From contig JAQTWS010000005.1 of the NCBI GenBank assembly GCA_028689175.1, positions 1 to 14,498 on the forward strand: 14,498 nt of DNA. Reading direction: 5' to 3'. A program made the position numbers and the translations under genes. Source of the stretch: Minisyncoccota bacterium. Its GTDB lineage: Bacteria; Patescibacteriota; Minisyncoccia; Minisyncoccales; Minisyncoccaceae. Below the pieces are notes generated by a model, which was not told the DNA's origin, ran no database searches, and saw only the letters and a list, made by a program, of their open reading frames with translations. How positions within the stretch are numbered: position 1 is the first letter of the stretch; every line of letters begins with the position of its first letter. Below, one piece after another: positions 1 through 14,498 of this stretch.

Positions 1-593
<593 letters not shown>

Positions 594-595
594 TT

Positions 596-832
596 ATGTT
601 AGTTAAAGTTATTACTCCAGAAAAAGAAATATTTAATGAAAAAGCAAAAAGTGTAAATTTGCCTACTTTGTCTGGATATATTACCATACTTCCGAATCAT
701 ACAGAACTTATTTCTGTTATTAATAAAGGAAAGATAAAAATAGAATTTGAATCCGGACTAAAAACATTAATGAGTGAAGGGGGAGTGGTAGAAGTATTCA
801 AAGATGAAGTTAATTTACTTCTTACAAAATAA
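596..832 (+). CDS. atpC: F-type ATP synthase epsilon subunit, short form
   Basis: Central-stalk subunit of F1 that couples rotation to the catalytic ring and in many bacteria restrains ATP hydrolysis. The 78 residues match only the N-terminal beta-sandwich: an opening 'LVKVITPEKEIF' strand, 'TLSGYITILPNHTELIS' (the usual G-x-h-x-I-L-P-x-H motif) and a final strand 'EVFKDEVNLL'. The usual family length is about 130-140 residues; the C-terminal two-helix domain that carries the inhibitory function is absent. The stop is followed at once by a terminator, so this is an intact gene end rather than a frameshift: no helical continuation fits before the hairpin. It starts 2 nt after atpD, with no recognisable Shine-Dalgarno. 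Short epsilon subunits occur in some other bacteria, so the loss may be lineage-typical. Confidence 0.9.
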   Translation: MLVKVITPEKEIFNEKAKSVNLPTLSGYITILPNHTELISVINKGKIKIEFESGLKTLMSEGGVVEVFKDEVNLLLTK

Positions 833-856
833 AAAAAAGGGCTTAGCCCTTTTTTT
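832..856 (+). terminator. Rho-independent terminator of the atp operon
   Basis: Perfect inverted repeat: A7-GGGC (832-842), loop TTA, GCCC-T7 (846-856). The right arm itself supplies the U tract. It begins inside the atpC stop codon, so transcription of the atp operon should end here. Confidence 0.9.
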
Positions 857-857
857 A

Positions 858-886
858 TTTGCATAAAAAAATTAAAATGATATAAT
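858..886 (+). promoter_or_regulatory. Putative sigma70-type promoter for the glycine-rich protein gene
   Basis: A perfect -10 box TATAAT (881-886) lies 17 bp downstream of TTTGCA (858-863), which matches 4 of 6 bases of TTGACA. The predicted start of transcription, near 893, leaves a leader of about 30 nt before the ATG at 923. It sits right after the atp terminator, where a new unit would need a promoter. In AT-rich DNA such matches arise by chance, so confidence is moderate. Confidence 0.5.
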
Positions 887-922
887 ATTATTTAATCATA
901 AATAACAATAAATAATAAAATT

Positions 923-3169
923 ATGTCTATCAAGAAAAACATTTTAATTCCTTTGCTTATAACATTTGTATGTGTTTTTGCCATTGTTTTATACAACAAT
1001 AATCAAATTAAAGAAATTAATGACCAAAATAGTTTTAATATTGGAGAATGGGGCAAAGTTTTGGCCGCGGGAGGTTGCTCACCCTCTTCTCATAATGTTA
1101 CTGGCTGGGCTTATGCTTATCCAATAGGGCCAATAAGTTTAAGTTGTACTAATCAAAATGCTCCTGTAAATTATGGAGTTAATATAATTGAAAGCTTTTC
1201 TCCAGTGGTTGAATGTCTTGGAGGCATAGTTTGTGATAGTAATTACATGCCGACATATGCTGAATCAGAAAATTATCACCATGTAAGGATAACAGGCACA
1301 GATATTAACGGAAGTGGATCGGGCACATTCATAGTTCCGCAAGGTCTTTCTATGCTTGATGTTACCGTCGTTGGTGGAGGAGCTGCAGGTTTTAAATTGG
1401 GAGGAGCTGGTGGATATGTTAAAACAGAAAAAAATTATAAAGTTATCCAGGGTGAGTCTATCAATGTTGTAGTTGGGGCAGGAGGAACATTTGACCCTAG
1501 TCCATATCCTTCAAATATGAGGAAAGGAAAAAGTAGTTCTTTTGGGTCTGTTTTAGTAAATAATACAGCAGAAAAATCTTTTGGATTATATATTAAATCA
1601 AATGGTGGGTCAGGAGGAGGAGGTTTCTATATTGGATCTGGCACAACTCCTGGCGGAGAAGGAGGATCTAATGGTGGTGATGGTCAACCTCGTTCGTATC
1701 CGGGAGGAATAGGACAATATTCTACTACTAAAGGAATTGATGGCATGACATATGCTGCGGGTGGAGGTGGGGGCGGTGCAAGTACACAATCAGCATATGG
1801 AGGAACTGATGATTTCGATTCTACTAACCTTGGAAGAGCTGCCACAAGTTTTAATAACAGAGGAGGAACTCCTATTAATAACAGTGGTTCAGGAGGTGGT
1901 GCAGGTTTTTATAATTCATCATTCGATGAGTGGAGCGAGGGAGGAGATGGAGCATCAGGAGTTATAATCGTAAGATTTCCAAAACTTAACGCAAAAGAAT
2001 TATCTGGATATGCCTGGAGTGCAGCAATAGGACCAATCAGTTTTAACAAAAATGAAATTTGCGCAAGCAGTGTTTGTAAAACAACTGATTTTCCTGCTAA
2101 CAATGCTAACACTAAGCATGTTGCTAAAATTGAATATGTAAAGCCTGGAGTTGCAAAAATAACGGGCTGGGCAAGGGCTCTTGCGGCATGTGATTTTGAC
2201 GGTCAAAAGTGTACTAAAAATACTGCTGGAGCGAATGCCGGCGGATGGGATGGATGGATAAAATTTGACAAGGACGCCACGATTAATTTTATAAAGGAGG
2301 GTAGTGTTTATAATACAATAATCCAAACTGACAAGAACGATGGAGAGCATAAAATACTAGGAAATGCTTGGGGCGGGGATCTCTTAGACACAAGAACACC
2401 TCCATCAGCTGTTTTAGGGGAAATAAGATATATAAATGCGAAAACCACTTATGATCCTAATAGAGCTTGTGAGGCTGAGTTTACCCCTACTGCTAATTTT
2501 ACTTTGGCATGTGCAGAAAAGTCAGTTGGAGTTACTTGTTATTTTAAAAAAGGTTCCACTATTACATTGAATAATCTCTCCTCAGCTGATAATAGTGAGT
2601 GTACCTTTAATCGTATAGAAAAAAGTATTTGGACTCCAGGAGGTGCTGTTGCATTAGATGAAGGATCAACCTTTGCTACTCAAGACAAGGCACAGTATGT
2701 GCAAAATATTAAGTTAGAAGTAGAAGATTCTCAGGGGAAAAAGGGCTCAAAGTCTGAAGATTGGACTTTGATAAGAGCTATTCAAGCTGATTTTTCGTGC
2801 TGCGTTAAAAAAGAGGGTAACAATTGTGATGAAGATGGCGATTTTAAAAAATGTAATGATGAAAGTTTCAAGAATCTAACTGTCACAGAAGATACAATTC
2901 TATATTTAAGAGATAGTACTTCTGTTCCTGCTTTTACAATTAAAGCATCCGATGCAACAAACATTGGGAGAGTATGGACTTATCCTCAAGGAAATGTTAA
3001 CGGATCTGGAGAAAATATTAATATTCCGATTAGGCAGGGTGGAAAGATTCAATTAAAAGCTTCTGATACTTCTGGTGACGATACCATGGTTAAAGATTTA
3101 GATGGGGCAAAGGGTATCTTTGGAAAGATTCTTAAAAATCCAGATTTTAAAGAAATTCCTTTTGATTAA
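923..3169 (+). CDS. Exported glycine-rich modular surface protein
   Basis: A 748-residue exported protein of unknown function. Residues 5-24 form a hydrophobic N-terminal segment (signal peptide or membrane anchor). Residues about 123-353 are a glycine-rich domain with 'VTVVGGG', 'GGAGG' and 'VVVGAGG' strands, ending in 'GASGVIIVRF', the usual edge of bacterial Gly-rich domains. This domain is bracketed by two copies of a short motif (60-75 GWAYAYPIGPISLSC; 361-375 GYAWSAAIGPISFN), a variant of the 'GWAWSxNIGWISFN' motif frequent in Parcubacteria; a further related block with 'ITGWARALAACDF' and 'GGWDGWIKF' spans 412-449. Residues about 517-620 and 620-748 are Cys-containing, beta-rich, PKD-like segments. 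There are many Cys residues outside the Gly-rich part, which suits an extracytoplasmic protein. It has its own promoter and terminator. A role in attachment or the cell surface is inference; no catalytic motif is visible. Confidence 0.85.
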   Translation: MSIKKNILIPLLITFVCVFAIVLYNNNQIKEINDQNSFNIGEWGKVLAAGGCSPSSHNVTGWAYAYPIGPISLSCTNQNAPVNYGVNIIESFSPVVECLGGIVCDSNYMPTYAESENYHHVRITGTDINGSGSGTFIVPQGLSMLDVTVVGGGAAGFKLGGAGGYVKTEKNYKVIQGESINVVVGAGGTFDPSPYPSNMRKGKSSSFGSVLVNNTAEKSFGLYIKSNGGSGGGGFYIGSGTTPGGEGGSNGGDGQPRSYPGGIGQYSTTKGIDGMTYAAGGGGGGASTQSAYGGTDDFDSTNLGRAATSFNNRGGTPINNSGSGGGAGFYNSSFDEWSEGGDGASGVIIVRFPKLNAKELSGYAWSAAIGPISFNKNEICASSVCKTTDFPANNANTKHVAKIEYVKPGVAKITGWARALAACDFDGQKCTKNTAGANAGGWDGWIKFDKDATINFIKEGSVYNTIIQTDKNDGEHKILGNAWGGDLLDTRTPPSAVLGEIRYINAKTTYDPNRACEAEFTPTANFTLACAEKSVGVTCYFKKGSTITLNNLSSADNSECTFNRIEKSIWTPGGAVALDEGSTFATQDKAQYVQNIKLEVEDSQGKKGSKSEDWTLIRAIQADFSCCVKKEGNNCDEDGDFKKCNDESFKNLTVTEDTILYLRDSTSVPAFTIKASDATNIGRVWTYPQGNVNGSGENINIPIRQGGKIQLKASDTSGDDTMVKDLDGAKGIFGKILKNPDFKEIPFD

Positions 3170-3188
3170 TAAGGTTTTGATTATTTAG

Positions 3189-3222
3189 TAAAAGAGAGAA
3201 AGCTTTCTCTCTTTTATTTTTT
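3189..3222 (+). terminator. Rho-independent terminator after the glycine-rich protein gene
   Basis: A perfect 28-nt palindrome (3189-3216, arms of 14 bases, GAGAGAAAG paired with CTTTCTCTC at the core) is followed by six T residues (3217-3222). The inner bases must open into a small loop. It is 20 nt past the stop codon. The symmetrical A/T flanks could also work in the other direction. Confidence 0.88.
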
Positions 3223-3269
3223 CATAAATAGTGTTAATAAAAAAATAAGAAAAGTTAATAATAAAAACA

Positions 3270-4214
3270 ATGAAAATAAAAGAAATTTTTGACCTAGTTA
3301 TAAATTTGGGAATTGAGGCAGATTTTAGAGGAAAAGATCACATTGAAAAAAATCTTAAAAAAAGAAAAGAAAAATATGAGAATCTTAGCGTTGAAAAGAA
3401 AGAAATTTTTGATTTAGAAGCATTAAGTAATCCATATATGGATTCTAGGATATATAATATTACGGAAGATAAAGATGTAAAAAAAATTTTAGCTGGAATT
3501 GATATTGAAGGTGAAGAACTTTTTCTTGCAGATAAATTAGGTGATATAGATTTGGTTGTTGCACATCACCCAGAAGGCAAGGGGCTTGCATGGCTTTCCG
3601 ATGTTATGGATATTCAAATAGATATTTTAAATTATTACGGTGTTCCCATAAATCAAGCCGAGAGAGTAACTAAAGAAAGAATTTCAGAAGTAGCAAGGTC
3701 TGTTAATGCAGCTAATCACGACAGAGCAGTTGATATGGCAAGGCTTTTAAATATTAATTTTATGAACAGCCATACTCCTTGTGATAATTTAGCGGCTAAT
3801 TTTTTAAATAAAGAAATTGAGAAAAATAAGCCAGAATATTTAGAGGATATTATAAAAATAATAGAAAGTATTCCAGAATATAAAGAGGCTATAAAAATAG
3901 GAGCAGGTCCTTCCCTTTTTGTTGGCTCTCCAGACAACAGATGCGGTAAAATCGCTTTAACTGAAATTACTGGAGGAACAGAAGGTTCTGAAAAAATGTA
4001 TGAAAAAATGGCTCAAGCTGGAATTGGCACAATAATAGGAATGCATATGTCTGAGAGAAATAAAAAAGAAGCAGAAGCAAATAATATAAATGTTGTTATT
4101 GCGGGACATATTTCATCAGATTCCCTTGGGATGAATTTGTTTTTAGACGAACTTGAGAAGCAGGGTATTGAGGTTATTCCATGCAGTGGATTAATTAGAG
4201 TAAAAAGATTTTAA
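3270..4214 (+). CDS. NIF3-family dinuclear metal-centre protein
   Basis: Belongs to the NIF3 (YbgI/Ngg1p-interacting factor) family, ring-forming proteins with a two-metal site whose biological reaction is still unclear. Likely metal ligands are visible in order: His99-His100 in 'VVAHHPEG', His168 and Asp172 in 'SHTPCDNL' (equivalent to the family HTxxD), and His280 with Asp284 in 'GHISSDSLGM', where many members have H-x3-E. The length, 314 residues, is longer than the minimal family (about 250); the extra part is a charged N-terminal region (20-60) with little similarity to classic members. The start ATG at 3270 has an A-rich leader and no Shine-Dalgarno. The gene ends at the base before the elp3 stop on the other strand. 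The Glu-to-Asp change at the last ligand appears conservative. Confidence 0.88.
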   Translation: MKIKEIFDLVINLGIEADFRGKDHIEKNLKKRKEKYENLSVEKKEIFDLEALSNPYMDSRIYNITEDKDVKKILAGIDIEGEELFLADKLGDIDLVVAHHPEGKGLAWLSDVMDIQIDILNYYGVPINQAERVTKERISEVARSVNAANHDRAVDMARLLNINFMNSHTPCDNLAANFLNKEIEKNKPEYLEDIIKIIESIPEYKEAIKIGAGPSLFVGSPDNRCGKIALTEITGGTEGSEKMYEKMAQAGIGTIIGMHMSERNKKEAEANNINVVIAGHISSDSLGMNLFLDELEKQGIEVIPCSGLIRVKRF

Positions 4215-4226
4215 TCATAAATCTTT
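4204..4226. terminator. Weak stem-loop shared by convergent NIF3 and elp3 stops
   Basis: AAAGATTT (4204-4211) can pair with AAATCTTT (4219-4226) across a 7-nt loop that contains both stop codons. In the elp3 direction the stem is followed by a short T-rich run; in the NIF3 direction there is no T tract. It is the only hairpin near this zero-gap convergent junction. An 8-bp AT-rich stem is weak. Confidence 0.3.
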
Positions 4227-5792
4227 AACCATATAGTAATTTTCTAATCTGTATCCTAATTTTCTATAATAATCTCTCACTCCTACGCCTGATATAACAT
4301 AGATTTTGTTAATATTAAATTCTTGTTTAGTAATTTTTTCTGCTTCACTAATTAATGCCTTTCCAAATCCCTTATGTTGAACTTCTCCTTTTTCTTTAAT
4401 TTTTTTAGATTCACCATAAGTGTGAACTTCCCTTATCATTGCCATATTAGGAGTTATTCTAAGTCTTAACACCGAATAAAGATGATTTCTTTTATTATCT
4501 TCAAAGCTTAAAAATATTTCATTTTGGGATTGTGCTAGATAATTTTCTCTAAACATTTTAATGTCCTTATCTTGTTTTTGAGCTCTTATTTCTCTGCATC
4601 TTATGCATTTGCATTTCCAATTTTCTTTTTGTATTTCTCTATCAATAATTTGTCTTAGGTTAGATGTTTTAGCGCCACCCTCTACAATTAGGGGAGCTGG
4701 TATATCTCTAATAATTCTTTCTATTCTTGTATAATATGGCACCTCCTTTTTTATACTTTTAATTAAATCTATCAACTCTCTTTCTGTATATGGCTTGTAA
4801 TTTCCTTTCTTATAGTCTTTATATAGTTCAGAACTTCTAACAAGGGCGCATGGATATATTTTTAAATAATCTGGTTTAAACTTTTCATTTTTAAAAAGTT
4901 CTCGTGCCATATTTAAATCTTTTTCTATGTTACTTAAAGGTAAGTTAAGCATAATCTGATAAGATACTTTAAACCCCGCATTTTTTAACAAACGAGTAGC
5001 TTTAATGGTTGCATTAACGTCATGTCCTCTTTTAGTTTTTTTAAGAATATTGTTGTATACTGACTGAACCCCTATTTCAATTTTTGTTGCGCCAAGCCTT
5101 CTCATTTCAAAAACTTCTTTTTCATTAATAAAATCTGGTCTTGTTTCAAAAGATAATCCGATTATTCTGTATCTAGTAGATTCATTTAACTTTTGTGCTT
5201 TTTCTAATTCTTTAAAAAGCTCTTTAATTGTTTTATTTGAATATGGTTCTTTTTTATATTCTATTTCATTGCAGGCATCAAAACATCGCTTAACAAACCA
5301 TATCTTATATTTTGTATTATAATACGACCATGTCCCTCCAATCACTCTTAGATCTATTTTTTCAGCGTTGTGTCCAGTGCTTTCCAAAACATCTATTCTT
5401 TTTTTAACTTGAATATATGGGTCATATTTTAATCTTTTTGCCCTTTCAACAGCAGGCTCTCCTGATAAATAGCTTTTAGGAATGTTTTCTTCTTTTGGGC
5501 AAAAAGTACAAGTACCTGGACAAGTATATGGTTTTGTTAAAACAGATACATTAATTACTCCTGAGAGTGACCTGACAGGCCTTACTCTAAGCAAATTTTC
5601 AATAGCTCTATCTTCCTTTAATCTTTTATTTTTAATTAAATTATGATAGACTTTAAGCAAGCTGATATTGTTTGGGCAGGGGAATTTATATTTTTTAGAG
5701 ATTTTTCTTTTTATGCATGCCAAATCATCTGGAGAAGGATTCTTTTTTAAAAATAATTCTTTAATAATTTCTTCATTTATATTTATATGCAT
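4215..5792 (-). CDS. elp3: Elp3: radical SAM/GNAT tRNA U34 carboxymethyl synthase
   Basis: Elp3 makes the cm5 group on wobble uridine (U34) of tRNA using a [4Fe-4S] cluster, S-adenosylmethionine and acetyl-CoA. At 525 residues it is full length. Seen in order: N-terminal tRNA-binding region with 'FPCPNNISLLKVY' (37-49); radical SAM domain with the cluster cysteines C91, C95 and C98 in KPYTCPGTCTFCP; 'YLSGEPAVERAKRLKYDPY' (108-126) and 'VIGGTWS', both strong Elp3 signatures; 'GLSFETRPD' (212-220); 'IGVQSVY'; a cysteine cluster C394/C396/C399 in the linker; and a C-terminal GNAT domain with acetyl-CoA loop Q472-x2-G475-x-G477 and the typical end 'VISGVGVRDYYRKLGY' (499-514). Stop is TGA. No other Elongator subunits are in the window, as in archaeal and the few bacterial Elp3 proteins that act alone. 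Its ATG shares bases with the ATG of the divergent methyltransferase gene. Confidence 0.96.
   Translation of the reverse strand: MHININEEIIKELFLKKNPSPDDLACIKRKISKKYKFPCPNNISLLKVYHNLIKNKRLKEDRAIENLLRVRPVRSLSGVINVSVLTKPYTCPGTCTFCPKEENIPKSYLSGEPAVERAKRLKYDPYIQVKKRIDVLESTGHNAEKIDLRVIGGTWSYYNTKYKIWFVKRCFDACNEIEYKKEPYSNKTIKELFKELEKAQKLNESTRYRIIGLSFETRPDFINEKEVFEMRRLGATKIEIGVQSVYNNILKKTKRGHDVNATIKATRLLKNAGFKVSYQIMLNLPLSNIEKDLNMARELFKNEKFKPDYLKIYPCALVRSSELYKDYKKGNYKPYTERELIDLIKSIKKEVPYYTRIERIIRDIPAPLIVEGGAKTSNLRQIIDREIQKENWKCKCIRCREIRAQKQDKDIKMFRENYLAQSQNEIFLSFEDNKRNHLYSVLRLRITPNMAMIREVHTYGESKKIKEKGEVQHKGFGKALISEAEKITKQEFNINKIYVISGVGVRDYYRKLGYRLENYYMVKDL
5787..5792. promoter_or_regulatory. ATGCAT: overlapping divergent start codons of elp3 and the methyltransferase
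   Basis: The palindrome ATGCAT carries the plus-strand ATG (5787-5789) and the minus-strand ATG (5790-5792), so two divergent genes overlap by 6 nt at their 5' ends. Each gene's promoter and any ribosome-binding signal must then lie within the other's coding region. Neither side has a Shine-Dalgarno; a TATATT box (5778-5783, plus strand) lies 3 nt before the plus ATG and could give a leaderless message. No other in-frame ATG, GTG or TTG is close for the methyltransferase. The promoter idea is weak; the overlap itself is read directly. Confidence 0.6.
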
Positions 5793-6428
5793 AATAGTGA
5801 TAAAATATTAATTAAAACCTATAATGATTATAATGCGATAGCAGAAAGATTTTCAAGAGCAAGAAAAAATATTTGGCCAGAATTTAATTTTTTATTTGAG
5901 GAAGTTAAGGAAAAAGAAAGAGTTTTAGATCTTGGATGTGGTAATGGAAGGTTTTACGAAAAACTAATGAATACAAATTATACGGGAATTGACAGTTCGC
6001 AAAAATTAATTAAAATAGCAAAGAAAAATTATCCTAACGTAGATTTTAAAGTAGCATCAGCATTTGATATTCCTTTTGAAAATGAAGAGTTTGATAGAAT
6101 TTATTGCTTAGCAGTACTTCATCATATCCCTCAAAAATATTATAGCAGATTTTTAGAAGAAACGAAAAGGGTTTTGAAAAATGGAGGACTTCTTATCTTA
6201 ACTGTCTGGAATTTAAATGAAAGAAAAAATAAAGAAGATGTTAAAAAAATAAATGATAAGGAAATTTTGATTCCTTGGCATGGGATAGAGAATCAATATT
6301 TTTATATTTTTGATCAAAAAGAATTAGAGAAATTATTTAAAGATTTTAAAATAATTAACAAAGGAGAAATAAAAATTAAAAAGTTTTTGAATTATTATTT
6401 AATATTAAAGAAGAATGAAAAAAAGTAA
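5787..6428 (+). CDS. Class I SAM methyltransferase, Trm9/ALKBH8-MT-like
   Basis: A 213-residue S-adenosylmethionine-dependent methyltransferase. Motif I is 'VLDLGCGNGRF' (46-56), the acidic end of strand 2 is Asp69 in 'TGIDSS', then 'ASAFDIPF' (90-97), 'AVLHHI' (109-114) and 'ILTVWN' (137-142). It resembles the Trm9 group beyond these shared motifs: an N-terminal 'YNAIAERFSRARKNIWPEF' (15-33, compare 'Y-N-E-I-A-x2-F-S-x-T-R-x3-W-P' of yeast Trm9), a Trp right after strand 5, an 'IPWHG' element (162-166) and a late 'YFYIFDQKELEKLF' (171-184). Trm9 methylates cm5U34, the Elp3 product, to mcm5U34. Being head to head with elp3 makes that role attractive. The fold is certain; the substrate is inferred, and small-molecule methyltransferases of the same family cannot be excluded. 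Its end overlaps the next gene by 14 nt. Confidence 0.88.
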   Translation: MHNSDKILIKTYNDYNAIAERFSRARKNIWPEFNFLFEEVKEKERVLDLGCGNGRFYEKLMNTNYTGIDSSQKLIKIAKKNYPNVDFKVASAFDIPFENEEFDRIYCLAVLHHIPQKYYSRFLEETKRVLKNGGLLILTVWNLNERKNKEDVKKINDKEILIPWHGIENQYFYIFDQKELEKLFKDFKIINKGEIKIKKFLNYYLILKKNEKK

Positions 6429-6987
6429 ATTTGATTTTAGGTATGATGTTGCTATTTCGGGCGCTTCAGACATGGAAATATGTACTCCGGGAACAAAAGA
6501 AAAAGCTTTTGAATTAGGTAAACAGCTTGCAAAAAATAAATGTGTTGTAATTTCAGGAGCAACAAGAGGCATTCCGCATGAAGTTTCTTGCGGAAACAGG
6601 GAGGCTGGGGGTTTAAATATCGGATTTTCTCCCGCAGTTTCAAAAACTGCACATATTAAAGCGTATAAACTTCCATTTGAGCCATATGATGTAATTATTT
6701 ATACAGGAGCAGATTATGCCGGAAGAGATATTGTTATGACAAAATCAGCAGAGGCAATGATTGTTATTTCTGGAAGAACAGGCACAATGCATGAATTTTT
6801 AACAGCTTTTGAAACAGGAAAAGTTATTGGTGTACTTGAGGGAACAGGCGGGGTGGCAGATGAAATTAAAAATTTTTTAAAAATTGTTAAAAAGAAAGCA
6901 AAAGCTCCGATTATTTATAGCAGTGACCCTAAAGAGCTTGTAAAAGCAGTTATTCATGAACTTGAAAAAAATAATAAAATAAATTAA
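6415..6987 (+). CDS. SLOG/LOG-like Rossmann-fold nucleotide-binding protein
   Basis: A 190-residue single-domain protein of the SLOG superfamily (the fold of LOG phosphoribohydrolases, DprA and TIGR00725-type proteins). It opens with a short strand and loop 'DVAISGASDM' (11-20), then 'CVVISGATRGIP' (43-54), a 'GADYAGRDIVMTKSAEAMIVISG' segment (98-120), and 'SGRTGTMHEF' (119-128), which corresponds to the LOG 'PGGxGTxxE' phosphate-binding/catalytic loop; Glu127 is kept, while the first Pro and one Gly are replaced. It lacks the DprA C-terminal parts. SLOG proteins bind nucleotides or nucleotide-derived ligands. The substrate here is unknown. It overlaps the methyltransferase gene by 14 nt, so translation is probably coupled; the next ATG in frame (residue 20) would remove the first strand, so 6415 is the likely start. 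Confidence 0.85.
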   Translation: MKKSKFDFRYDVAISGASDMEICTPGTKEKAFELGKQLAKNKCVVISGATRGIPHEVSCGNREAGGLNIGFSPAVSKTAHIKAYKLPFEPYDVIIYTGADYAGRDIVMTKSAEAMIVISGRTGTMHEFLTAFETGKVIGVLEGTGGVADEIKNFLKIVKKKAKAPIIYSSDPKELVKAVIHELEKNNKIN

Positions 6988-6991
6988 TTTT

Positions 6992-7426
6992 ATGTTAAAT
7001 ATAATTACTATTCTTGAATTAATTTATGCAACATTATTGGGTGCATTAATAGGTCTTGAAAGAGAGATAAAAGGAAAAGATGCCGGATTTCAAACATATG
7101 CCCTTGTTTGTTTAGGCTCATATCTTTTTACAATAATTTTTTATTCTATTTACAATGCTTTTATTCAAGAATCACAAATATCATTTGATCCAGGAAGAAT
7201 AATTCAATCCATAGCAATTGGTGTTGGTTTTTTAGGAGCCGGAGCTATATTTAAAAATAATGAAGGCATAAGAGGACTTACAACTGCAGCAGGGCTTTGG
7301 GTTGCTGCTGCTATAGGAGTCGCAGTTGCAGTGCAAGAATACCTTATTGCCCTTATTGCTGCATTTTTAGTTGTTTTTATATTTTTGCTCCTTGGAATTT
7401 TTGAAAAAAACATAATCAAAAAATGA
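6992..7426 (+). CDS. MgtC/SapB-family membrane protein
   Basis: A 144-residue inner-membrane protein corresponding to the MgtC/SapB transmembrane domain. Family marks are 'GALIGLERE' (17-25), 'GVGFLGAGAIFK' (77-88) and 'GLTTAAGLWVAAAIG' (95-109). About five hydrophobic segments are seen (near 5-23, 34-54, 68-87, 97-113 and 116-136). The C-terminal cytoplasmic domain of Salmonella MgtC (total about 230 residues) is missing, as in many short members. MgtC proteins are linked to growth at low magnesium and to control of ATP synthase or phosphate uptake in some species; the role here is not shown. It starts 4 nt after the SLOG gene's stop and overlaps the next gene by 4 nt (ATGA), within one transcription unit. 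Confidence 0.93.
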   Translation: MLNIITILELIYATLLGALIGLEREIKGKDAGFQTYALVCLGSYLFTIIFYSIYNAFIQESQISFDPGRIIQSIAIGVGFLGAGAIFKNNEGIRGLTTAAGLWVAAAIGVAVAVQEYLIALIAAFLVVFIFLLLGIFEKNIIKK

Positions 7427-8643
7427 GATTAATTGCTGATTTTCACATACATTCCAAATACTCAAGAGCTGTAAGTTCAAAAATGGATTTGGAAGAAATA
7501 AGCAGGCAGGGAAAGATTAAAGGAATTGATATTATTGGAACAGGGGACTTTACTCACCCCTTATGGTTTTCTGAATTAAAGAATAAGTTAATTTTAGATT
7601 CTTCTAATTTTTATATTTTAAAACAAGAAGATTCTATAAAATTTATAATCTCGGGAGAAATAAGTTTAATTTATTCTAAGTTAAATAAAATTAGAAAAAT
7701 TCATCTAATTTTAATATGTCCTAATTTAGAAACTGCGGGAAAAGTAAATCAAAAATTATCAGAGAGATATAATTTAAAATCTGATGGAAGGCCCATACTA
7801 GGACTTGATGCAAAAGAATTTTTAAAAATTATTTTAGATATTTCAAAAGATATATTAGTCATCCCTGCGCATATAATGACTCCTTGGTTTGGTTTATATG
7901 GTTCTAGATCTGGATTTGATTCTATAACCGAATGTTTTGAGGAACTTTCAGAATATATTTATGCTTACGAAACAGGTTTGTCTGCCAACCCTTCGATGCT
8001 TTTAAAAATGAAGGAGTGTAGAGAAAGAACTCTTTTATCTAATTCAGATGCACACTCTCCTCAAAAATTAGGCAGAGAGGCAAACGTTTTTGATTGTGAT
8101 TTTGATTATAATTCTATTATTAAAAAAATTAAAGATAATGATCTTTTAGAAACAATCGAATTTTATCCTGAGGAAGGGAAATATTTTAATGACGGACATA
8201 GAAACTGTAATGTAAATTTTTCTCCAGAGGAAACGTATAAATATAATGGAATTTGTCCTGTCTGTGGTAAACCATTAGTTCTTGGAGTTTTGAACAGAGT
8301 AAATAAACTTAGCGATTTTAAACAAGTAAGCAAATGTAATTTTAAAAGCTTAGTACCATTAAGAGAAATTATAGGAGAAGTACTAGGATTAGGAGCATTG
8401 ACAAAGGCGGTTGATAAGGAATATGTAAAACTAATTGAAGAATTTAAATCTGAATTCAATATTTTACTTTATGAGAATATTTTAAATATAGAAAAAGTAG
8501 ATAAAACAATTGCTCTGGCTATTAAAAAAGTAAGAGAAGGAGATCTTCAAATTATTCCTGGATATGATGGAGAGTTTGGAAAAGTTAAAATATTTGGAGG
8601 CGAAGAAAGAAAAAAGCAATCTTTACAACAAACATTATTATGA
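7423..8643 (+). CDS. endoQ: Endonuclease Q-like PHP-domain DNA repair nuclease
   Basis: Homologue of EndoQ, a nuclease known from Thermococcales and a few bacteria that cuts 5' of deaminated bases (uracil, hypoxanthine, xanthine) and abasic sites. The PHP metal site is intact: His8 and His10 in 'ADFHIHSKYS', Asp42 and His45 in 'GTGDFTHP', Glu79, His94, His150 in 'PAHIMTPWF', Asp209 and His211 in 'SNSDAHSP'. A zinc-site region follows with Cys262, Cys278 and Cys281 ('CPVCGKPLVLGVLNRV'), diagnostic for this family rather than for other PHP proteins. The C-terminal region (310-406) includes a helix-hairpin-like 'VREGDLQIIPGYDGEFGKVKIF'-type segment often annotated as UvrD-like, and the protein ends in QQTLL, a possible sliding-clamp motif. 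Its ATG overlaps the MgtC-like stop and its TGA overlaps the rarA start, each by 4 nt. Confidence 0.9.
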   Translation: MRLIADFHIHSKYSRAVSSKMDLEEISRQGKIKGIDIIGTGDFTHPLWFSELKNKLILDSSNFYILKQEDSIKFIISGEISLIYSKLNKIRKIHLILICPNLETAGKVNQKLSERYNLKSDGRPILGLDAKEFLKIILDISKDILVIPAHIMTPWFGLYGSRSGFDSITECFEELSEYIYAYETGLSANPSMLLKMKECRERTLLSNSDAHSPQKLGREANVFDCDFDYNSIIKKIKDNDLLETIEFYPEEGKYFNDGHRNCNVNFSPEETYKYNGICPVCGKPLVLGVLNRVNKLSDFKQVSKCNFKSLVPLREIIGEVLGLGALTKAVDKEYVKLIEEFKSEFNILLYENILNIEKVDKTIALAIKKVREGDLQIIPGYDGEFGKVKIFGGEERKKQSLQQTLL

Positions 8644-9761
8644 AGCCATTAGCAGAAGAATTAAGACCAAAAAGCATAGAAGATTTTGTAGGGCAAGAAG
8701 AAATTTTGGGTAAAAATAGCTTGCTCAGGAAAGCAATAAAAGAAGATAATGTTCCTTCTATGATTTTTTATGGTCCGCCAGGAACAGGAAAAACTACATT
8801 AGCAAAAATTATCGCAAATAAAACTGAATATCATTTCGAAGAATTAAGTGCTGTTAATTCAGGGATAAAAGATTTTAAAATTATAATTGAAAGAGCTGAG
8901 CTAAATAAAAGATTAAACGAAAAAACTATTCTTTTTATAGATGAAATTCACAGATGGAATAAAAAACAACAAGATGCGCTTTTGCCATACATAGAAAATG
9001 GAACTATCGTTTTGATAGGGGCAACAACAGAAAATCCTTCCTTTGAAGTTAATGCAGCACTTTTATCAAGATGTAGAGTTTTTGTTTTTGAAAAATTAGA
9101 AGAAAAAGAGATCGAAAAAATTATTAAAAGGGCAGTTTTAAAAAAAGATATAAAAATAAAAAATAAGGCAATTAAAATTTTAAGTCAAATAAGCAATGGC
9201 GATGCTAGAGTTGCTTTAAATATTTTAGATTACGCTTCTTCATTAAATAAAAATATAGAAGAAAAAGAGATTAAGGAAGCTTTTCAAAAACAAAATCTTT
9301 ATTATGATAAACATGGAAAAGAGCATCACGATTTAATTTCTGCATTAATTAAATCAATGAGAGCAGGAGAAGAAGATGCTGCTATCTATTATCTTGTTCG
9401 CATGCTCGAAGCAGGGGAAGATCCTTTATATATTGCAAGAAGGCTAATCGTTTTTGCTTCAGAAGATATAGGGCTCCAAAATTCTTTAGCACTAAATCAG
9501 GCTGTTAATGTTTTTCATGCATGCCATTTTATTGGTATGCCAGAATGTCGACTTAATTTAATACAAGGAGTAGTTTATATGTGCAAAAATAAGAAATCAA
9601 GAAAGCTTTACGAAGCTTATGAAAAGGCTAAAGAAGATGTTTCGATGTATGGCAATCTTAAAATTCCTTTACACATAAGAAATATTAAGAGCTTTGAAAA
9701 AGATAATGATTACAAAGAATTTTTACCTCAAAAAGTAAAAAATAAAAAATATTTATCTTAA
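8640..9761 (+). CDS. rarA: RarA/MgsA AAA+ ATPase, replication-associated recombination protein
   Basis: Clamp-loader-like AAA+ ATPase that acts at stalled or gapped replication forks. Residues 1-40 contain the typical 'LAEELRPKSIEDFVGQEEIL' type start. Walker A is 'GPPGTGKTT' (45-53), Walker B 'LFIDEIHRWNKKQQDALLP' (98-116), sensor 1 'GATTENPSF' (127-135), and the arginine-finger region 'SRCRVF' (143-148). The sensor-2 and tetramer parts follow, including 'MLEAGEDPLYIARRLIVFASEDIGL' residues. At 373 residues it is about 50-70 shorter than E. coli RarA; the far C-terminus, usually '...YLP..L....YY.P..' with further residues, stops early after 'EFLPQKVKNKKYLS'. Coupled to endoQ by an ATGA overlap. 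Its last 9 nt overlap the end of mltG on the other strand. Confidence 0.95.
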   Translation: MKPLAEELRPKSIEDFVGQEEILGKNSLLRKAIKEDNVPSMIFYGPPGTGKTTLAKIIANKTEYHFEELSAVNSGIKDFKIIIERAELNKRLNEKTILFIDEIHRWNKKQQDALLPYIENGTIVLIGATTENPSFEVNAALLSRCRVFVFEKLEEKEIEKIIKRAVLKKDIKIKNKAIKILSQISNGDARVALNILDYASSLNKNIEEKEIKEAFQKQNLYYDKHGKEHHDLISALIKSMRAGEEDAAIYYLVRMLEAGEDPLYIARRLIVFASEDIGLQNSLALNQAVNVFHACHFIGMPECRLNLIQGVVYMCKNKKSRKLYEAYEKAKEDVSMYGNLKIPLHIRNIKSFEKDNDYKEFLPQKVKNKKYLS

Positions 9762-9773
9762 GTAAATATTTTT
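9745..9773. terminator. Bidirectional stem-loop at the overlapping rarA/mltG ends
   Basis: AAAAATATTTA (9745-9755) pairs with TAAATATTTTT (9763-9773), an 11-bp stem with a 7-nt loop. Both stop codons lie in it: rarA TAA at 9759-9761 in the loop and the mltG stop (complement of 9753-9755) in the left arm. T-rich tracts follow on both strands. The stem is all A/T, so strength is uncertain. Confidence 0.5.
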
Positions 9774-10730
9774 ATTTATTTTATGTTCTTCAAAATTTTC
9801 ACTAAAGATAGTTGTTCCATCCTTAGCTGAAAGATAGTACCAATAGTTGTTACTTATGGGATTTAAAGCAGCTTCTATGCTTTCTTTTCCTGGATTTGAA
9901 ATTGGTCCAATAGGCAGACCTGTATATTTATATGTATTAAAGGGCGAGTCAACTTTGGAATCAAAAACAGCTCCTTTGTTTGCATAAAGAACAGTGGCAT
10001 CAATTTGAAGCGGCATATTGCTTTCAAGTCTTTTTAAAATAACATGAGAAATCATTTGCTTATCTTCAAATCCCCTAACTTCTTTTTCTATAAGCGAACT
10101 TAGTATTAAAACATCATAAAAATTTTGTTTGTTATCTATTTTATTCCATACTTTTTTTTCAAAATTAGAAAGCATTTTTTTAATAATAATTTCTGGAGTA
10201 TCGTTTTGATTTATATAATACGTATCTGGAAATAAAAATCCTTCTAGGCTTAAATTTTTAGGCTTGTATTTCAAAAACTCAAATTCATTTGATAAATCTA
10301 ATGAAGGGTAGCCTAATTCAGATTTTCCAGCTATATTAAAAAAATATTCTTTGTTAAATAAATTTTTTTCTTCTAAATAATTGGCAATATCATCAATAGT
10401 CCAGCCCTCTCTAATTACAATTTTTTCTTTAACAGTATTTCCATTAATTATTTGATTAATAATTTCTGAACTACCCATTGAAGAATTTAATTTGTATATC
10501 CCTGCTTTAATATCTTTTGGATCATTATGGAAATAAAGGAGTATATAAAAAAGACGGCTATTTCTAATAAAGCCCTCTTCTTTTAAATTTTGAGAAATTG
10601 TTTTTAAAGTCTCTCCCTCTCTAATAACAAAAAGATCTTCCTTGTAATGAGCTGTGTAATTATTAACAAAAAAACATATTAAAATTAGTAATGCAGTAAC
10701 GCAAAAAAAAATTCTTTTTGAAATAAGCAT
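9753..10730 (-). CDS. mltG: Endolytic murein transglycosylase MltG
   Basis: Membrane-anchored lytic transglycosylase of the YceG family that cuts nascent peptidoglycan strands and so sets glycan length. Residues 5-24 are one transmembrane helix with a short cytoplasmic start, followed by the LysM-like region 'VIREGETLKTISQNLKEEG' (35-53) and a second 'VIREGWTIDDIANYL' (105-119). The catalytic domain has 'LEGFLFPDTYYI' (162-173), the active-site Glu215 in 'SSLIEKEV', 'PLQIDATVLYA' (240-250) and 'GLPIGPISNPG' (271-281), all standard family marks. At 325 residues it is about normal length. It is transcribed away from the Kazal/dockerin operon and tail to tail with rarA, so it forms a single-gene unit within this window. 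Confidence 0.96.
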   Translation of the reverse strand: MLISKRIFFCVTALLILICFFVNNYTAHYKEDLFVIREGETLKTISQNLKEEGFIRNSRLFYILLYFHNDPKDIKAGIYKLNSSMGSSEIINQIINGNTVKEKIVIREGWTIDDIANYLEEKNLFNKEYFFNIAGKSELGYPSLDLSNEFEFLKYKPKNLSLEGFLFPDTYYINQNDTPEIIIKKMLSNFEKKVWNKIDNKQNFYDVLILSSLIEKEVRGFEDKQMISHVILKRLESNMPLQIDATVLYANKGAVFDSKVDSPFNTYKYTGLPIGPISNPGKESIEAALNPISNNYWYYLSAKDGTTIFSENFEEHKINKNIYLR

Positions 10731-10746
10731 ATATTAAAAATATATG
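10728..10746. repeat. Inverted repeat overlapping the mltG start codon
   Basis: CATATATT (10728-10735), spacer AAA, AATATATG (10739-10746) is a perfect 8-bp inverted repeat. The left arm contains the complement of the mltG ATG. It could be an operator or a 5' hairpin of the mltG message, but in such AT-rich DNA it could also be chance. Confidence 0.3.
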
Positions 10747-10765
10747 AAAATAGAACATTTGTAAA
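10737..10765 (-). promoter_or_regulatory. Putative promoter for mltG
   Basis: On the minus strand TTTACA (10765-10760, 5 of 6 to TTGACA) is followed after 17 bp by TATTTT (10742-10737, 4 of 6 to TATAAT). The start of transcription would fall at or next to the ATG at 10730, implying an almost leaderless message. A TATATT with 15-bp spacing is an alternative. Confidence 0.3.
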
Positions 10766-10768
10766 GTA

Positions 10769-10797
10769 TTGTTTTTTTATTTAAAAAAGGCGATAAT
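10769..10797 (+). promoter_or_regulatory. Putative promoter for the Kazal/dockerin operon
   Basis: TTGTTT (10769-10774), a 17-bp spacer, then GATAAT (10792-10797, 5 of 6 to TATAAT). Transcription would begin near 10804, giving a leader of about 23 nt before the ATG at 10827. It lies in the divergent gap between mltG and this operon. Confidence 0.4.
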
Positions 10798-10826
10798 ATA
10801 TATAAAAATAAATAAAATACAAGCTT

Positions 10827-13220
10827 ATGATGAATAAAAAAATCTTTTTAACATGTTTAATTTTAATTTTCAGTTTAAATTATACTAATACACATGCATG
10901 TAGTTTAACCGATTTAACTTCCTGCTCTTTTTCTGATTTAAAAGAATTTGTTTCTGGATTGTTATCTTTTGAAAAAAAATCAAATTGTAAAAATGTATAT
11001 TTTCCAGCATGTTCAAAGTCAGGTAAGACATTTGATAATATTTGTTTACTAAAAGAAAGCAAGGATAAATTAGATTATTATGGAAGATGTTTAGAGTATC
11101 CATACAATTTGTCAGCAAATAATTGTGTAAAAGAAAAATTTGATTGGGACGGATATAAGTGTGTAAAAAAAGAAGAAAATCATTTATATTATGAAAATAA
11201 AGAGCTTGGATTTAGTCTAATGCTTCCTTCAAATTCTATAATTAACAAAGATTTTATAGAACTTCCCAAAGAAAGAAATAACACAAATTTAATTTTTAAA
11301 AAGTTAGAATTTATATCAGATAATTATTGTTCGGATATCTTGTCTTATACAAAGGTAAATGATATAGACGAAACTCAAAAATTTAAAATAGTTAATGGAG
11401 AAAATAGTTTAGATTATGGAAATGACATTTTAGCAAATATTAATTATAAATATTATATTTTAGAGAATAAAGATTCTTGCATAGGATTTTTATTTTCCAT
11501 ATATTCAAATGGGTCTTTCGAAAAATATAACAAAATAATAGAAAGCGCTAATTTCAACGAGATTATGGAAAGCCTTTCTTTTATAGAAAAAAGACAAGAA
11601 AAAAAATCTCCTTGTGAAAATTATGGAGATTTAAATTCAGATAATATAATTAATAAAGATGATTTAAATTATTTTGTATTTGGATCAGTTGAAAATAATC
11701 TGCAGAAAAGAGGAGATTTAAATAACGATGCTATTGTGGATGAAAAAGATCAAAATATTCTTTATAGTTTTATTTACGAAAATACTGAATCTTTTCCCGC
11801 TTGCTCAATTGAAAAAGATATAAAAAGGGGGTCAGCTCCAAAAATATTTTTTAATAAAAATTTTAATGTTAAGCAAAACATCAAAAAAACTGAAGCTAAT
11901 ATAACAATAAATTTTGATTTAATTGCTGAAAAAGGTGATATTTACATACCAGCAAATGGCATGCATTTGAAAATTTTAAACGACGAAAATGTAAAGATAG
12001 AAGATATGACATGGAATACAGGTGCTCAAATCAAGGAAGATGGCTATATTTTTTTAGAAAAAGGAAAAACAACATGGATTTCGGTAGAACTTAATTTAAA
12101 GGCAAAAGAGAAACCTATTTATACAAAAGCATTAATTGACGAAATAAGTTACTTAAATGAAAAAGGAGAATTAAAAAAAATTTCAACCCCGATTGAAACA
12201 AATAAATTTTATTTGAATTTTACAAAAGATGAAAATTTGATATGCGGTATTTATGGAGATATCAATGATGACGGATTGATAAATGAAGAAGATATTTCTT
12301 TTATAGTTACAAACAAAGAATTAAATGAAGATCAAAAAATAAGAGCTGACGTTTCTGGCAACGGAGAAGTTAATATAATAGATGCTATTGAAATACAAAA
12401 ATATATTTTAAAAGGAAAGCCTTTTACTATTTGTTCTAAAACTTATACTCCTACAGTATACGATAATGCTCTTGTTGGTGTGGAAAATAACGAGGATAAA
12501 ACAAAACATGTGACTCTAACATTTTATTTAGACTCAAATAAGGGAGATGCTTTAATACCAGCCAAGGTTTCCATAAATCAAGATGACGAATCTTCAGGTA
12601 TCTATTTGCAGCTTGAAAAAGATGGAAATATGATAGTTAAAAATTTAAAACTTTGGAGCAGTGCAGAATTAATAAATTCGGGATTTTTAAAAATTAAAAA
12701 AAATATCCCTAATTGGATTAAAATTGAATTTGATATTGAAGCAATAAATGATACTGCTCTTGTGAATTTTAAAATTAATAAAATAGCTTATTTGAACAAT
12801 ACTGAAAGGGAGTATATTTATCCTTCAGATATTAAAACAGGCGATATATTTTTAAATTATGAAAAAAAAGAATTTTTATCTCCATGTGGACAATTAGGGG
12901 ATCTTAATTTAGATAATTATGTTACTTATTCTGATTACGATTATTTAAAAAATAATTTAAATATTTTACTTAAGGATTACGAAAAATTTATTTATGCTGA
13001 TTTAAATAAAGATGGAATAATAGACGAATTAGATTTGAAAGAACTTGACGATTATTTAAATCAAAAAATTGACAAATTCTCAGGATGCTTAAAAGATGCT
13101 TGTAATTCATCAATAGAACCCGTCTACACAAAAGACGGATTTATATATGCAAATGAATGTTATTTGAAAAAGGCACAAAAAGAAGTTAAATGCTATATTA
13201 ACAAAAACTGTGGATTATGA
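10827..13220 (+). CDS. Exported modular protein with Kazal-like ends and three dockerin-like repeats
   Basis: A 797-residue exported protein of unknown function. Signal peptide: about residues 1-25 (Lys4-Lys5, then a hydrophobic run). Residues 54-88 are a Kazal-like module with four cysteines (C54, C62, C73, C88; spacings x7 and x10 match Kazal C2-C3-C4). Residues 119-255 form a globular domain starting 'YYENKELGFSLMLP', a type common in CPR exported proteins. Then come three pairs of dockerin-like calcium loops: 267-309 (DLNSDNIINKDD, DLNNDAIVDEKD), 477-519 (DINDDGLINEED, DVSGNGEVNIID) and 691-736 (DLNLDNYVTYSD, DLNKDGIIDELD), each bracketed by cysteines (263/326, 473/536, 687/754). Between them lie two homologous beta-rich modules (about 355-465 and 560-678). 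The C-terminus (759-795) is a second Kazal-like module 'PVYTKDGFIYANEC'. ATG at 10827 and 10830 are both possible starts. It overlaps the next gene by ATGA. Confidence 0.86.
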   Translation: MMNKKIFLTCLILIFSLNYTNTHACSLTDLTSCSFSDLKEFVSGLLSFEKKSNCKNVYFPACSKSGKTFDNICLLKESKDKLDYYGRCLEYPYNLSANNCVKEKFDWDGYKCVKKEENHLYYENKELGFSLMLPSNSIINKDFIELPKERNNTNLIFKKLEFISDNYCSDILSYTKVNDIDETQKFKIVNGENSLDYGNDILANINYKYYILENKDSCIGFLFSIYSNGSFEKYNKIIESANFNEIMESLSFIEKRQEKKSPCENYGDLNSDNIINKDDLNYFVFGSVENNLQKRGDLNNDAIVDEKDQNILYSFIYENTESFPACSIEKDIKRGSAPKIFFNKNFNVKQNIKKTEANITINFDLIAEKGDIYIPANGMHLKILNDENVKIEDMTWNTGAQIKEDGYIFLEKGKTTWISVELNLKAKEKPIYTKALIDEISYLNEKGELKKISTPIETNKFYLNFTKDENLICGIYGDINDDGLINEEDISFIVTNKELNEDQKIRADVSGNGEVNIIDAIEIQKYILKGKPFTICSKTYTPTVYDNALVGVENNEDKTKHVTLTFYLDSNKGDALIPAKVSINQDDESSGIYLQLEKDGNMIVKNLKLWSSAELINSGFLKIKKNIPNWIKIEFDIEAINDTALVNFKINKIAYLNNTEREYIYPSDIKTGDIFLNYEKKEFLSPCGQLGDLNLDNYVTYSDYDYLKNNLNILLKDYEKFIYADLNKDGIIDELDLKELDDYLNQKIDKFSGCLKDACNSSIEPVYTKDGFIYANECYLKKAQKEVKCYINKNCGL

Positions 13221-13945
13221 TAGATGGGATTTTATTATTTTTTATAATTTTGCTTATTTATTCTTTTTGGTGGTTTGATTTTTGTTTTTTAAATAAAAAT
13301 ATTTCTAAATTTAAACAAGATTTTGAAAAAGTAAAATCTAAATGTGATATTATTATTATTTTTAATGCAGGTGGTTGGGGAACCGTAGATTATAAAAATG
13401 CTTTTGATCTAAACCCATTTGCTATTTTTATAAAAGATTATTTAAATAAAAAAGGTTTTAAATCTTGTATTATTCAATATTTTAGAACTGAAGACCATCT
13501 AATCGGAAGACTGGGATATGTTAAAGATTATGTTTTTGCTTTTGAAAAACAAGTAAAGCGCATTTCTTCTATCATAAAAGAAACAGATAAAAAGATAATA
13601 TTACTCGGGTTATCTAACGGAGCGCTTATAGCAGATGAAGTTATGGAAAACATGAGAGAAGCTAAAAATATTTTTAGCATAGAGCTTGGTAAGCCATTTT
13701 TTGGAACGCATAGCAAAAATGAAAATATTCTTTTAATAAATAACTTTGAAGATGATTTGTGTAATGGAAATACACTTGAACTTTTAAAAAGTATATTTAT
13801 TTTTACTCCTATAAGATGGATTAAAAATTTTGTTTTAGGGGAGGGAGTTTCTCTTGGTTTAGCCGTTAAAGTTAAGGGGCATAATTATCCACTTGATAAA
13901 TACAAGGGGAAGATTATTAAATTTACTGACGAAAAGATTATATGA
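13217..13945 (+). CDS. Membrane-anchored alpha/beta-hydrolase-like protein
   Basis: A 242-residue protein with one N-terminal transmembrane segment (about 3-21, rich in Ile, Leu, Phe and Trp). The rest looks like an alpha/beta hydrolase: a first core strand ending in 'IIIIFNAGGWG' (45-55, possible oxyanion-hole region), a helix and strand 'CIIQYFR', then 'KIILLGLSNGALIADEV' (126-142) with the nucleophile elbow G-L-Ser133-N-G. His222 in 'GHNYP' is a good catalytic His; an acid such as Asp179 or Asp180 could complete the triad. No family-specific motif lets me name a substrate; ester, lipid or amide cleavage are all possible. Translationally coupled (4-nt overlaps) to the Kazal/dockerin gene upstream and to the flippase-like gene downstream, which suggests envelope work. 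Confidence 0.75.
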   Translation: MIDGILLFFIILLIYSFWWFDFCFLNKNISKFKQDFEKVKSKCDIIIIFNAGGWGTVDYKNAFDLNPFAIFIKDYLNKKGFKSCIIQYFRTEDHLIGRLGYVKDYVFAFEKQVKRISSIIKETDKKIILLGLSNGALIADEVMENMREAKNIFSIELGKPFFGTHSKNENILLINNFEDDLCNGNTLELLKSIFIFTPIRWIKNFVLGEGVSLGLAVKVKGHNYPLDKYKGKIIKFTDEKII

Positions 13946-14498
13946 TAAAGACTCTTCTATTATTCTTATTATCTATTTTATTTGGAGGCATAATCTTTGT
14001 GTATGTTGGTAATACTTTTGGCTGGGATTTCATACTAAGCAGTTTTAAAATATTTTTAAATTTAGAAGGATTTCTAATAATAATTTTATCATTCTTTATT
14101 GCTTTTTTAGGAGCTTTGAGATGGAAAAAAATAATAGGAGAAAAAAGAATTTCCAATAATGAATTATTTAAAATTTATATTGGTGGTTTTTCTATTATGT
14201 ATTTATTTCCTATGGTTATACTTGGAAGTGAGTTTTTTAGAGCATCACTACTTGAGCATAAAGAAAAAATAGGCTGGGATAAAGCTTTGGCATCTGTTTT
14301 TATAGAAAGAATTATAGAATGGACTATAAATATCATAGTGATTATAACTGGTGTTTTGTATTTTTTTTATACAATCCAAAAACCATCTCAAAATCTTGCA
14401 ATTATTTTTGCCGTTTCAATCGCAATCACTTTAATTATTTTCATAACTATTTATTTCTATATTTTCAAAAAAAAGAGTTTTTTAAGAAATATTTTGCT
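13942..14498 (+). CDS. Flippase-like membrane protein (UPF0104/LPG-synthase TM domain), 3' end outside window
   Basis: The first 185 residues of a polytopic membrane protein; no stop is reached before the window ends. ATG at 13942 overlaps the preceding stop (ATGA). Hydrophobic segments lie near 3-22, 42-58, 78-95, 126-145 and 151-175. The segment 'MYLFPMVILGSEFFRASLL' (86-104) followed by 'WDKALASVFIERIIEW' (112-127) matches the conserved pattern of the lysylphosphatidylglycerol-synthase TM/UPF0104 family ('G-E-x-x-R-A-x-L-L ... A-x-x-S-V-x-x-E-R-x-x-D'). Members act as or resemble lipid-linked substrate flippases or aminoacyl-lipid synthases. Whether a synthase domain follows cannot be seen. 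Confidence 0.8.
   Translation, partial: MIKTLLLFLLSILFGGIIFVYVGNTFGWDFILSSFKIFLNLEGFLIIILSFFIAFLGALRWKKIIGEKRISNNELFKIYIGGFSIMYLFPMVILGSEFFRASLLEHKEKIGWDKALASVFIERIIEWTINIIVIITGVLYFFYTIQKPSQNLAIIFAVSIAITLIIFITIYFYIFKKKSFLRNIL

Follow-up and report, generated by a model that had tools for sequence, protein, structure and literature searches.

Which modification does a bacterium place on the wobble uridine (U34) of its tRNAs when its gene for Elp3 stands head to head with one for a methyltransferase resembling eukaryotic Trm9? The question is raised by a stretch of 14,498 nucleotides from a Minisyncoccota bacterium (assembly GCA_028689175.1, contig JAQTWS010000005.1, positions 1 to 14,498), here called the window, which forms contig C95 of a genome of 586 kb that is fragmented into 100 contigs and 94% complete. 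A preliminary description made from the letters alone had proposed that the two proteins form a minimal pathway to 5-methoxycarbonylmethyluridine (mcm5U34). The pair proved real, and its reading as a two-protein mcm5U34 route is well supported at the level of sequence and genome comparison.

In the proposed route, Elp3 alone would use acetyl-CoA and radical S-adenosylmethionine (SAM) chemistry to place a carboxymethyl group on C5 of U34, giving 5-carboxymethyluridine (cm5U). The divergently encoded Trm9-like neighbour would then esterify the cm5U carboxylate with a methyl group from SAM, a step suggested by its closest relative, its shared residues and its linkage to Elp3, and would apparently do so independently of a Trm112 partner. 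The likely substrates would be the tRNAs served by eukaryotic Trm9, and in the window's order a SLOG-family protein may be a third, accessory member. We consider this minimal pathway the probable function of the pair.

A divergent pair of elp3 and a methyltransferase gene

Two open reading frames carry the proposal, and both lie where the preliminary description had placed them.

4215..5792, minus strand: elp3, predicted radical SAM/GNAT tRNA U34 carboxymethyl-forming enzyme, 525 residues (TIGR01211, 534 bits; PDB 6iaz, E 6e-124)
5499..5522, minus strand: radical SAM cysteines of Elp3, C91-x3-C95-x2-C98, aligned with the radical-SAM-motif cysteines of M. infernus Elp3
5787..6428, plus strand: Trm9-like class I SAM methyltransferase, 213 residues (Methyltransf_11, Trm9 5cm2, profiles, predicted fold)

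The first protein is a full-length Elp3, as had been claimed. TIGR01211 matches residues 11-525 with 534.2 bits against a cut-off of 350, and the best PDB match is M. infernus Elp3 (6iaz, E 6e-124), with which it shares 219 of 456 aligned residues. The GNAT loop QHKGFG aligns with QHMGYG of the M. infernus enzyme. Assuming an offset of 16 between the chain index and the published M. infernus numbering, the aligned counterparts of E216, K311 and Y313 are E207, K302 and Y304, whose alanine mutants have no or nearly no activity, Y304F being partly active (PMC13315578, in the portion available). Family membership and these kept catalytic residues suggest that the window's Elp3 forms cm5U34.

The pair is conserved across genomes

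Gene order was compared in 147 genomes of the window's order, in a phylum-wide draw of 286 genomes and in a scan of species genomes. Within the order the methyltransferase was found in 106 genomes at E 1e-15 and Elp3 in 113 at E 0.001, 107 of them over the cut-off; the tally used only Elp3 rows of about 150 bits or more, from 110 of the 113 genomes. Both genes are present in 99 genomes: in 93 they lie divergently within 600 nucleotides, in five divergently on the same contig 0.7-3.7 kb apart, and in one on separate contigs. Seven genomes have a methyltransferase match and no Elp3. Five of these have only matches of 60-70 bits, and in the two with strong matches (G055, G105) the contig breaks off beside the gene, on the flank that would be expected to carry Elp3. 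By eye, two genomes of one family (f43; G091, G110) have genes inserted between the pair, an isopentenyl diphosphate isomerase-like gene and others.

Across the phylum, Elp3 occurs in 106 of the 286 genomes at E 1e-40 (103 over the cut-off). Methyltransferase matches at E 1e-20 were present in 119 genomes; apart from the genomes named below, those short of the tally cut have lower scores and resemble generic enzymes of class I. The tally uses a uniform methyltransferase cut of 95 bits, giving 82 genomes with the methyltransferase and 77 with both genes; below the cut and outside the tally are G216 (91 bits, beside Elp3) and G156, G174 and G237 (91-93 bits, without Elp3). In 64 of the 77 the genes are adjacent and divergent, in five divergent and 1.1-3.5 kb apart, in one tandem and 5 kb apart (G347), and in seven on separate contigs. 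Every genome with a methyltransferase match of at least 107 bits also has Elp3 (74/74; Fisher p 2e-43, for genomes that are not independent).

The linkage reaches further still. Elp3 adjoins the methyltransferase in 20 of 80 loci of the species-genome scan, divergently in all 20, and eight of these lie outside the candidate phyla radiation (CPR): six in Chloroflexota, one in Fermentibacterota and one in Ignavibacteriota. The arrangement thus holds across numerous families and several phyla, even where identity is as low as about 25%. The CPR placement of the window itself was borne out, since its closest named records in the scan are Paceibacterota, Parcubacteria and Portnoybacteria. The preliminary description had called such a reduced pathway notable in a small-genome CPR organism; the pair is indeed present in one, but it is no CPR speciality.

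The methyltransferase is closest to Trm9

The following positions of the methyltransferase, given with their conservation in 46 rows of the order, underlie its comparison with Trm9.

5925..5948, plus strand: SAM-binding motif I, LDLGCGNG (L47, D48, G50, C51, G52 and G54 invariant in the 46 rows)
6207..6209, plus strand: W141, the Trp after strand 5, common to Trm9 (46/46)
6273..6278, plus strand: P163-W164, a PW also found in Trm9 (P in 35/46, W in 41/46)
6294..6305, plus strand: QYFY at 170-173, at the place of RYYH in Trm9 and many relatives (R in 23/46)
6390..6392, plus strand: N202, probable equivalent of S. cerevisiae Trm9 N271 (44/46)

The protein matches Methyltransf_11 (Pfam) with 82.8 bits, and proteins of the family are about 190-250 residues long in the order. 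As a single sequence its best PDB match is Yarrowia Trm9 (5cm2, 51 bits). Two profiles, A1 built from the 46 order rows and A3 from 68 Elp3-linked rows of several phyla, were compared with 177,635 PDB sequences, and Trm9 came first with both: at 87.1 bits for A1 (next 84.5) and at 107.9 bits for A3 (next 95.1), so that its lead widens with the broader family. A grouping with small-molecule enzymes, against which the Trm9 assignment had to hold, was therefore not borne out. Trm9 also heads the 177,635 sequences, weakly (E 0.034), when the profile covers only the C-terminal half, which we take as support and not as proof. In a Foldseek search with an AlphaFold model of high confidence (predicted local distance difference test 95.7), Trm9 5cm2 was second by E-value and had the highest target-normalised TM-score (0.81) among the 50 matches listed.

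Residues outside the SAM core are common to the family and Trm9. The preliminary description had named a Trm9-like N-terminus with Trp-Pro, a Trp after strand 5 and a late YFYIFDQKEL element. The first of these corresponds to W30, kept in 42 of the 46 order rows, although the following Pro is not general; the second is W141; and the third is the version, in this protein, of the family motif RY[FYV]HxFxxxEL, in which Y171 is kept in 45/46 and F175 and L180 in 46/46 order rows. The conservation of these motifs is far beyond chance. When eight Trm9 positions (R, W, W, W, R, Y, H, E) were scored, all 94 Elp3-linked rows (91 distinct genes; 46/46 from the order, 48/48 others) had at least five; of 37 rows without a nearby Elp3, 29 share at most three, two share four and six share at least five (L167, L081, L085, L088, L087, L104). 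The score is a comparison and not an independent test, the positions having been picked after the family was seen, and linked and unlinked rows alike were gathered by similarity to A1, the window's protein or Elp3. When the search was reversed and started from the Trm9 stretch, linked rows again ranked above unlinked ones (area under the curve 0.90 for the full length, 0.89 for the C-terminal part).

The yeast Trm9 mutants R29A, H115A, R241A, Y243A and N271A are reported to lose tRNA affinity and activity (kcat) in the part available of a review (PMC5372719). Mapped by motif, these residues would correspond to R26, H112 or H113, positions 170 and 172, and N202. On this mapping the window's copy keeps the equivalents of R29, H115 and N271, and within the order R26 is kept in 45/46 and H112 in 46/46 rows. 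Many relatives have R and Y at 170 and 172, and relatives in other families retain the RYYH motif.

MnmE, MnmG, Trm112 and the tRNAs

Most bacteria modify U34 through MnmE and MnmG, and a complete MnmE/MnmG system would have spoken against the preliminary reading. Each of the two was over the cut-off in none of the 147 order genomes. Weak MnmG matches in 55 of these genomes (at most 22.6 bits, mostly over the first ~33 positions) were set aside as presumed FAD-binding Rossmann folds. Only six of the 286 phylum genomes have MnmG, however; its lack is thus the norm of the phylum and does not mark the pair as a specific replacement of MnmE/MnmG. None of the six has Elp3, but the Fisher p is only 0.09 across the 286 genomes, and Elp3 as a specific replacement of MnmG was dropped. 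Among 20 genomes reached through the loci, whose completeness was not stated, MnmG occurs in two, a pair-bearing member of Ignavibacteriales and a member of Omnitrophota with an unlinked methyltransferase.

Trm112 (PF03966) gave no match in the window's genome and was over the cut-off in seven of the 147 order genomes, which agrees with the proposed independence from Trm112; because the partner was not found in the window's genome, we call the enzyme Trm9-like and not a Trm9-Trm112 enzyme. The genome contains tRNA genes for Arg-UCU, Gly-UCC, Lys-UUU and Gln-UUG, and also for Glu-CUC. Yeast Trm9 serves five anticodons (PMC5372719, available portion), including the first four named here.

PP-loop proteins at the place of the methyltransferase

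Some genomes with Elp3 have another gene where the methyltransferase is usually found. Full matches to DUF7411 (at least 225 bits) occur in six of the 147 order genomes, five of one family and one of another; five further order genomes have matches of 34-38 bits only. All six have Elp3 and none has the methyltransferase (E 1e-15), and in each of the six (L217, L220, L221, L224, L225, L226) DUF7411 is divergent from Elp3, at the methyltransferase's usual place. In five Elp3-only loci an Asn-synthase-like PP-loop protein lies beside or near Elp3, divergent or in overlapping tandem; the first four below were assigned by Pfam and the last by similarity.

L218, 1254-2036: Asn-synthase-like PP-loop protein
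L219, 454-1305: Asn-synthase-like PP-loop protein
L236, 2222-3013: Asn-synthase-like PP-loop protein
L239, 4719-5534: Asn-synthase-like PP-loop protein
L243, 2136-2924: Asn-synthase-like PP-loop protein

Altogether 38 Elp3-only loci were compared, from 38 of the 39 genomes so classed (G255 was left out): 11 have a PP-loop neighbour and 27 do not, and in several Elp3 stands at a contig end. Among the 27 is L246, where a methyltransferase with a weak match of 67 bits stands divergent. The control genomes of M. jannaschii, H. volcanii and M. acetivorans match both DUF7411 and Elp3, and that of S. acidocaldarius matches Elp3 and gave no DUF7411 match. By eye, three related loci with Elp3 and no methyltransferase (L232, L247, L250) have Elp3 divergent from a nucleoside-diphosphate-kinase-like gene.

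Activation of carboxylates is frequent among such PP-loop enzymes and would fit amidation of cm5U to 5-carbamoylmethyluridine (ncm5U). The DUF7411 PP-loop ATPase is accordingly a candidate for the enzyme forming ncm5U or 5-cyanomethyluridine (cnm5U), a role with which a function in 2-thiolation competes. We tentatively suggest, as possible rather than probable, that the position divergent from bacterial elp3 is a swappable slot for tailoring cm5U34. A Trm9-like enzyme there would give mcm5U, and a PP-loop ATPase of the DUF7411 or Asn-synthase type would convert that carboxylate by amidation into ncm5U, or take it on to cnm5U, a nitrile. On this view the ncm5U enzyme still sought would be the PP-loop protein, and the eukaryotic pathway would have its simplest versions in the bacterial two-gene forms. 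The ncm5U-forming enzyme was termed unknown in any organism in 2019 (PMC6412123, in the part available). The open literature searched, with most subscription papers and bioRxiv outside its scope, held no paper on DUF7411 and, in the portions of its papers available, identified no ncm5U-forming enzyme. The swap offers a concrete candidate for it.

Points against mcm5U34 and alternative readings

Several observations weigh against mcm5U34 formation by the pair. The main argument at the level of sequence against full Trm9 function of the window's copy is that it has Q170 and F172 at the places that motif mapping assigns to yeast R241 and Y243, and Arg at position 170 is missing from all 18 A1 rows of the window's family. 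PH0226 (1ve3) nearly equals Trm9 as a match to the A1 profile, and Foldseek ranks it first, above Trm9. A free tree does not settle where Trm9 falls. Constrained trees holding the signature-bearing rows together reached likelihoods, relative to a quick free tree, of +20.0 with Trm9 included, +16.6 without it and +15.1 with PH0226 in its stead, and none was rejected; grouping Trm9 with these rows has the best likelihood of the three, a weak preference. In the phylum draw, 32 of the 106 Elp3 genomes have no methyltransferase match of at least 107 bits. The absence of MnmG says little that is specific, as the gene is rare across the whole phylum, and one of 13 linked-pair genomes in the locus-derived set, that of Ignavibacteriales, does have MnmG. 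Finally, tRNA-Glu-UUC was not found in the window's genome, the assembly of which is fragmented.

In a first alternative reading, the target of the methyltransferase is still the Elp3 product or its tRNA but at a different atom, such as the ribose 2'-O of cm5U34, or else a further derivative, and mcm5U is not what finally results. In its favour, linkage by itself points only to a common pathway, the residues at the R241 and Y243 positions of Trm9 differ in the window's family, and Elp3 products are elaborated in several ways (PMC7694415, available part). However, residues outside the SAM core are shared specifically with Trm9, relatives in other families keep RYYH, and Trm9 is the top solved relative; taken together, we judge a different target atom unlikely.

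Alternatively, mcm5U could be only an intermediate that is then amidated to ncm5U or otherwise altered, perhaps with the help of the gene downstream of the methyltransferase.

6415..6987, plus strand: SLOG cluster 4 (LDcluster4/TIGR00725-like) protein (Pfam PF18306, 114 bits; overlaps the methyltransferase end by 14 nucleotides)

This gene lies downstream of the methyltransferase, on its strand, in 26 of 30 order loci, and in much of the window's family the ends of the two overlap. In three loci it comes after DUF7411, and four Elp3-only loci have it close to DUF7411 or to an Asn-synthase-like protein. A yeast trm9 mutant accumulates ncm5U, which suggested an extra step (PMC3110198, in the portion available). 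However, SLOG accompanies the pair in only four of the 20 species-genome-scan loci and two of 30 phylum loci, several of them from the order itself (flanks up to 4 and 1.5 kb), and it is thus not needed for the core reaction. The SLOG protein has a conserved GxxGTxxE motif, presumably reminiscent of LOG-type enzymes, and its nearest solved relatives are 1rcu and molybdenum cofactor carrier proteins. We know of no SLOG enzyme that acts on tRNA, and on balance a role of mcm5U as a mere intermediate appears very improbable.

The last alternative makes the neighbour a generic or small-molecule methyltransferase whose head-to-head position comes from sharing a promoter region with elp3, not a pathway. 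It draws on the commonness of class I methyltransferases and on a SAM core that matches many enzymes, but is strongly disfavoured by the reach of the linkage down to about 25% identity, by Elp3 in 74/74 phylum genomes with a strong methyltransferase match and by the weak matches or contig ends that mark all seven order genomes with a methyltransferase match and no Elp3.

Other features of the window

5787..5792, no strand: ATGCAT palindrome holding both start codons, in 6/6 loci of the genus
3270-4214: NIF3/DUF34-family protein, ending directly beside the elp3 stop

Because both starts fall within ATGCAT, the upstream signals of each gene would, if these are the true starts, lie inside the coding sequence of the other, and each of the divergent transcripts would start within the opposite gene; no purine-rich ribosome site was obvious by eye near the shared starts. 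Close relatives (about 60-68%) of the NIF3/DUF34 protein lie near elp3 in seven of the searched loci, two of which (L054 and L227) are from the same genome. The window also encodes two large putative secreted proteins. One, at 10827-13220, has repeats of the pattern GDLNxDxxVxxxD, which we take to be dockerin-like, here in a CPR genome. The other, at 923-3169, is Gly-rich and by eye comes right after the apparent ends of atpD (3-593) and atpC (596-832).

Comparison with known systems

A Trm9-like enzyme is thus tied to Elp3 across several bacterial phyla, and these bacteria, together with some other bacterial groups, probably make a wobble modification hitherto ascribed to eukaryotes and archaea and not to bacteria. 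The open literature searched, as far as its papers were available, contains no report of a bacterial Trm9-like enzyme or of bacterial mcm5U. The pair suggests how these bacteria may treat U34 without MnmE/MnmG, makes it possible to test how reduced genomes decode codons of the AAA/AAG type, and offers a small, apparently Trm112-free system for studying the chemistry and origin of mcm5U.

With eukaryotic Elongator and Trm9-Trm112 or ALKBH8, the pair shares the Elp3 catalytic residues and a methyltransferase whose nearest solved relative is Trm9. It differs in being bacterial and encoded by two divergent genes, in having no Trm112 match in its genome, and in the length range of its methyltransferase given above for the order. 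The MnmE-MnmG-MnmC pathway acts at the same tRNA position and in the same decoding role, but its chemistry differs and neither MnmE nor MnmG exceeded the cut-off in the order.

Archaea are credited with Trm9-Trm112 (PMC7694415, in the part available), and the accessible portion of PMC5372719 describes Elp3 with Trm9 in Haloferax and a Trm9 candidate clustered with Elp3 in Sulfolobus solfataricus. Archaeal and bacterial systems have a stand-alone Elp3 in common, and clustering with a Trm9 candidate had already been noted in an archaeon. Archaeal Trm9 is discussed together with Trm112; the bacterial pair is divergent and spans several phyla, and Trm112 gave no match in the window's genome and was seldom over the cut-off in its order. 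Among bacteria, Dehalococcoides mccartyi DmcElp3 has been called a rare example of a bacterial Elp3 (PMC6367351, available part). The window's enzyme resembles it as a bacterial Elp3 that would act without other Elongator subunits; in contrast to that rarity, more than a third of the phylum genomes compared here (106/286) have Elp3, often with a conserved partner.

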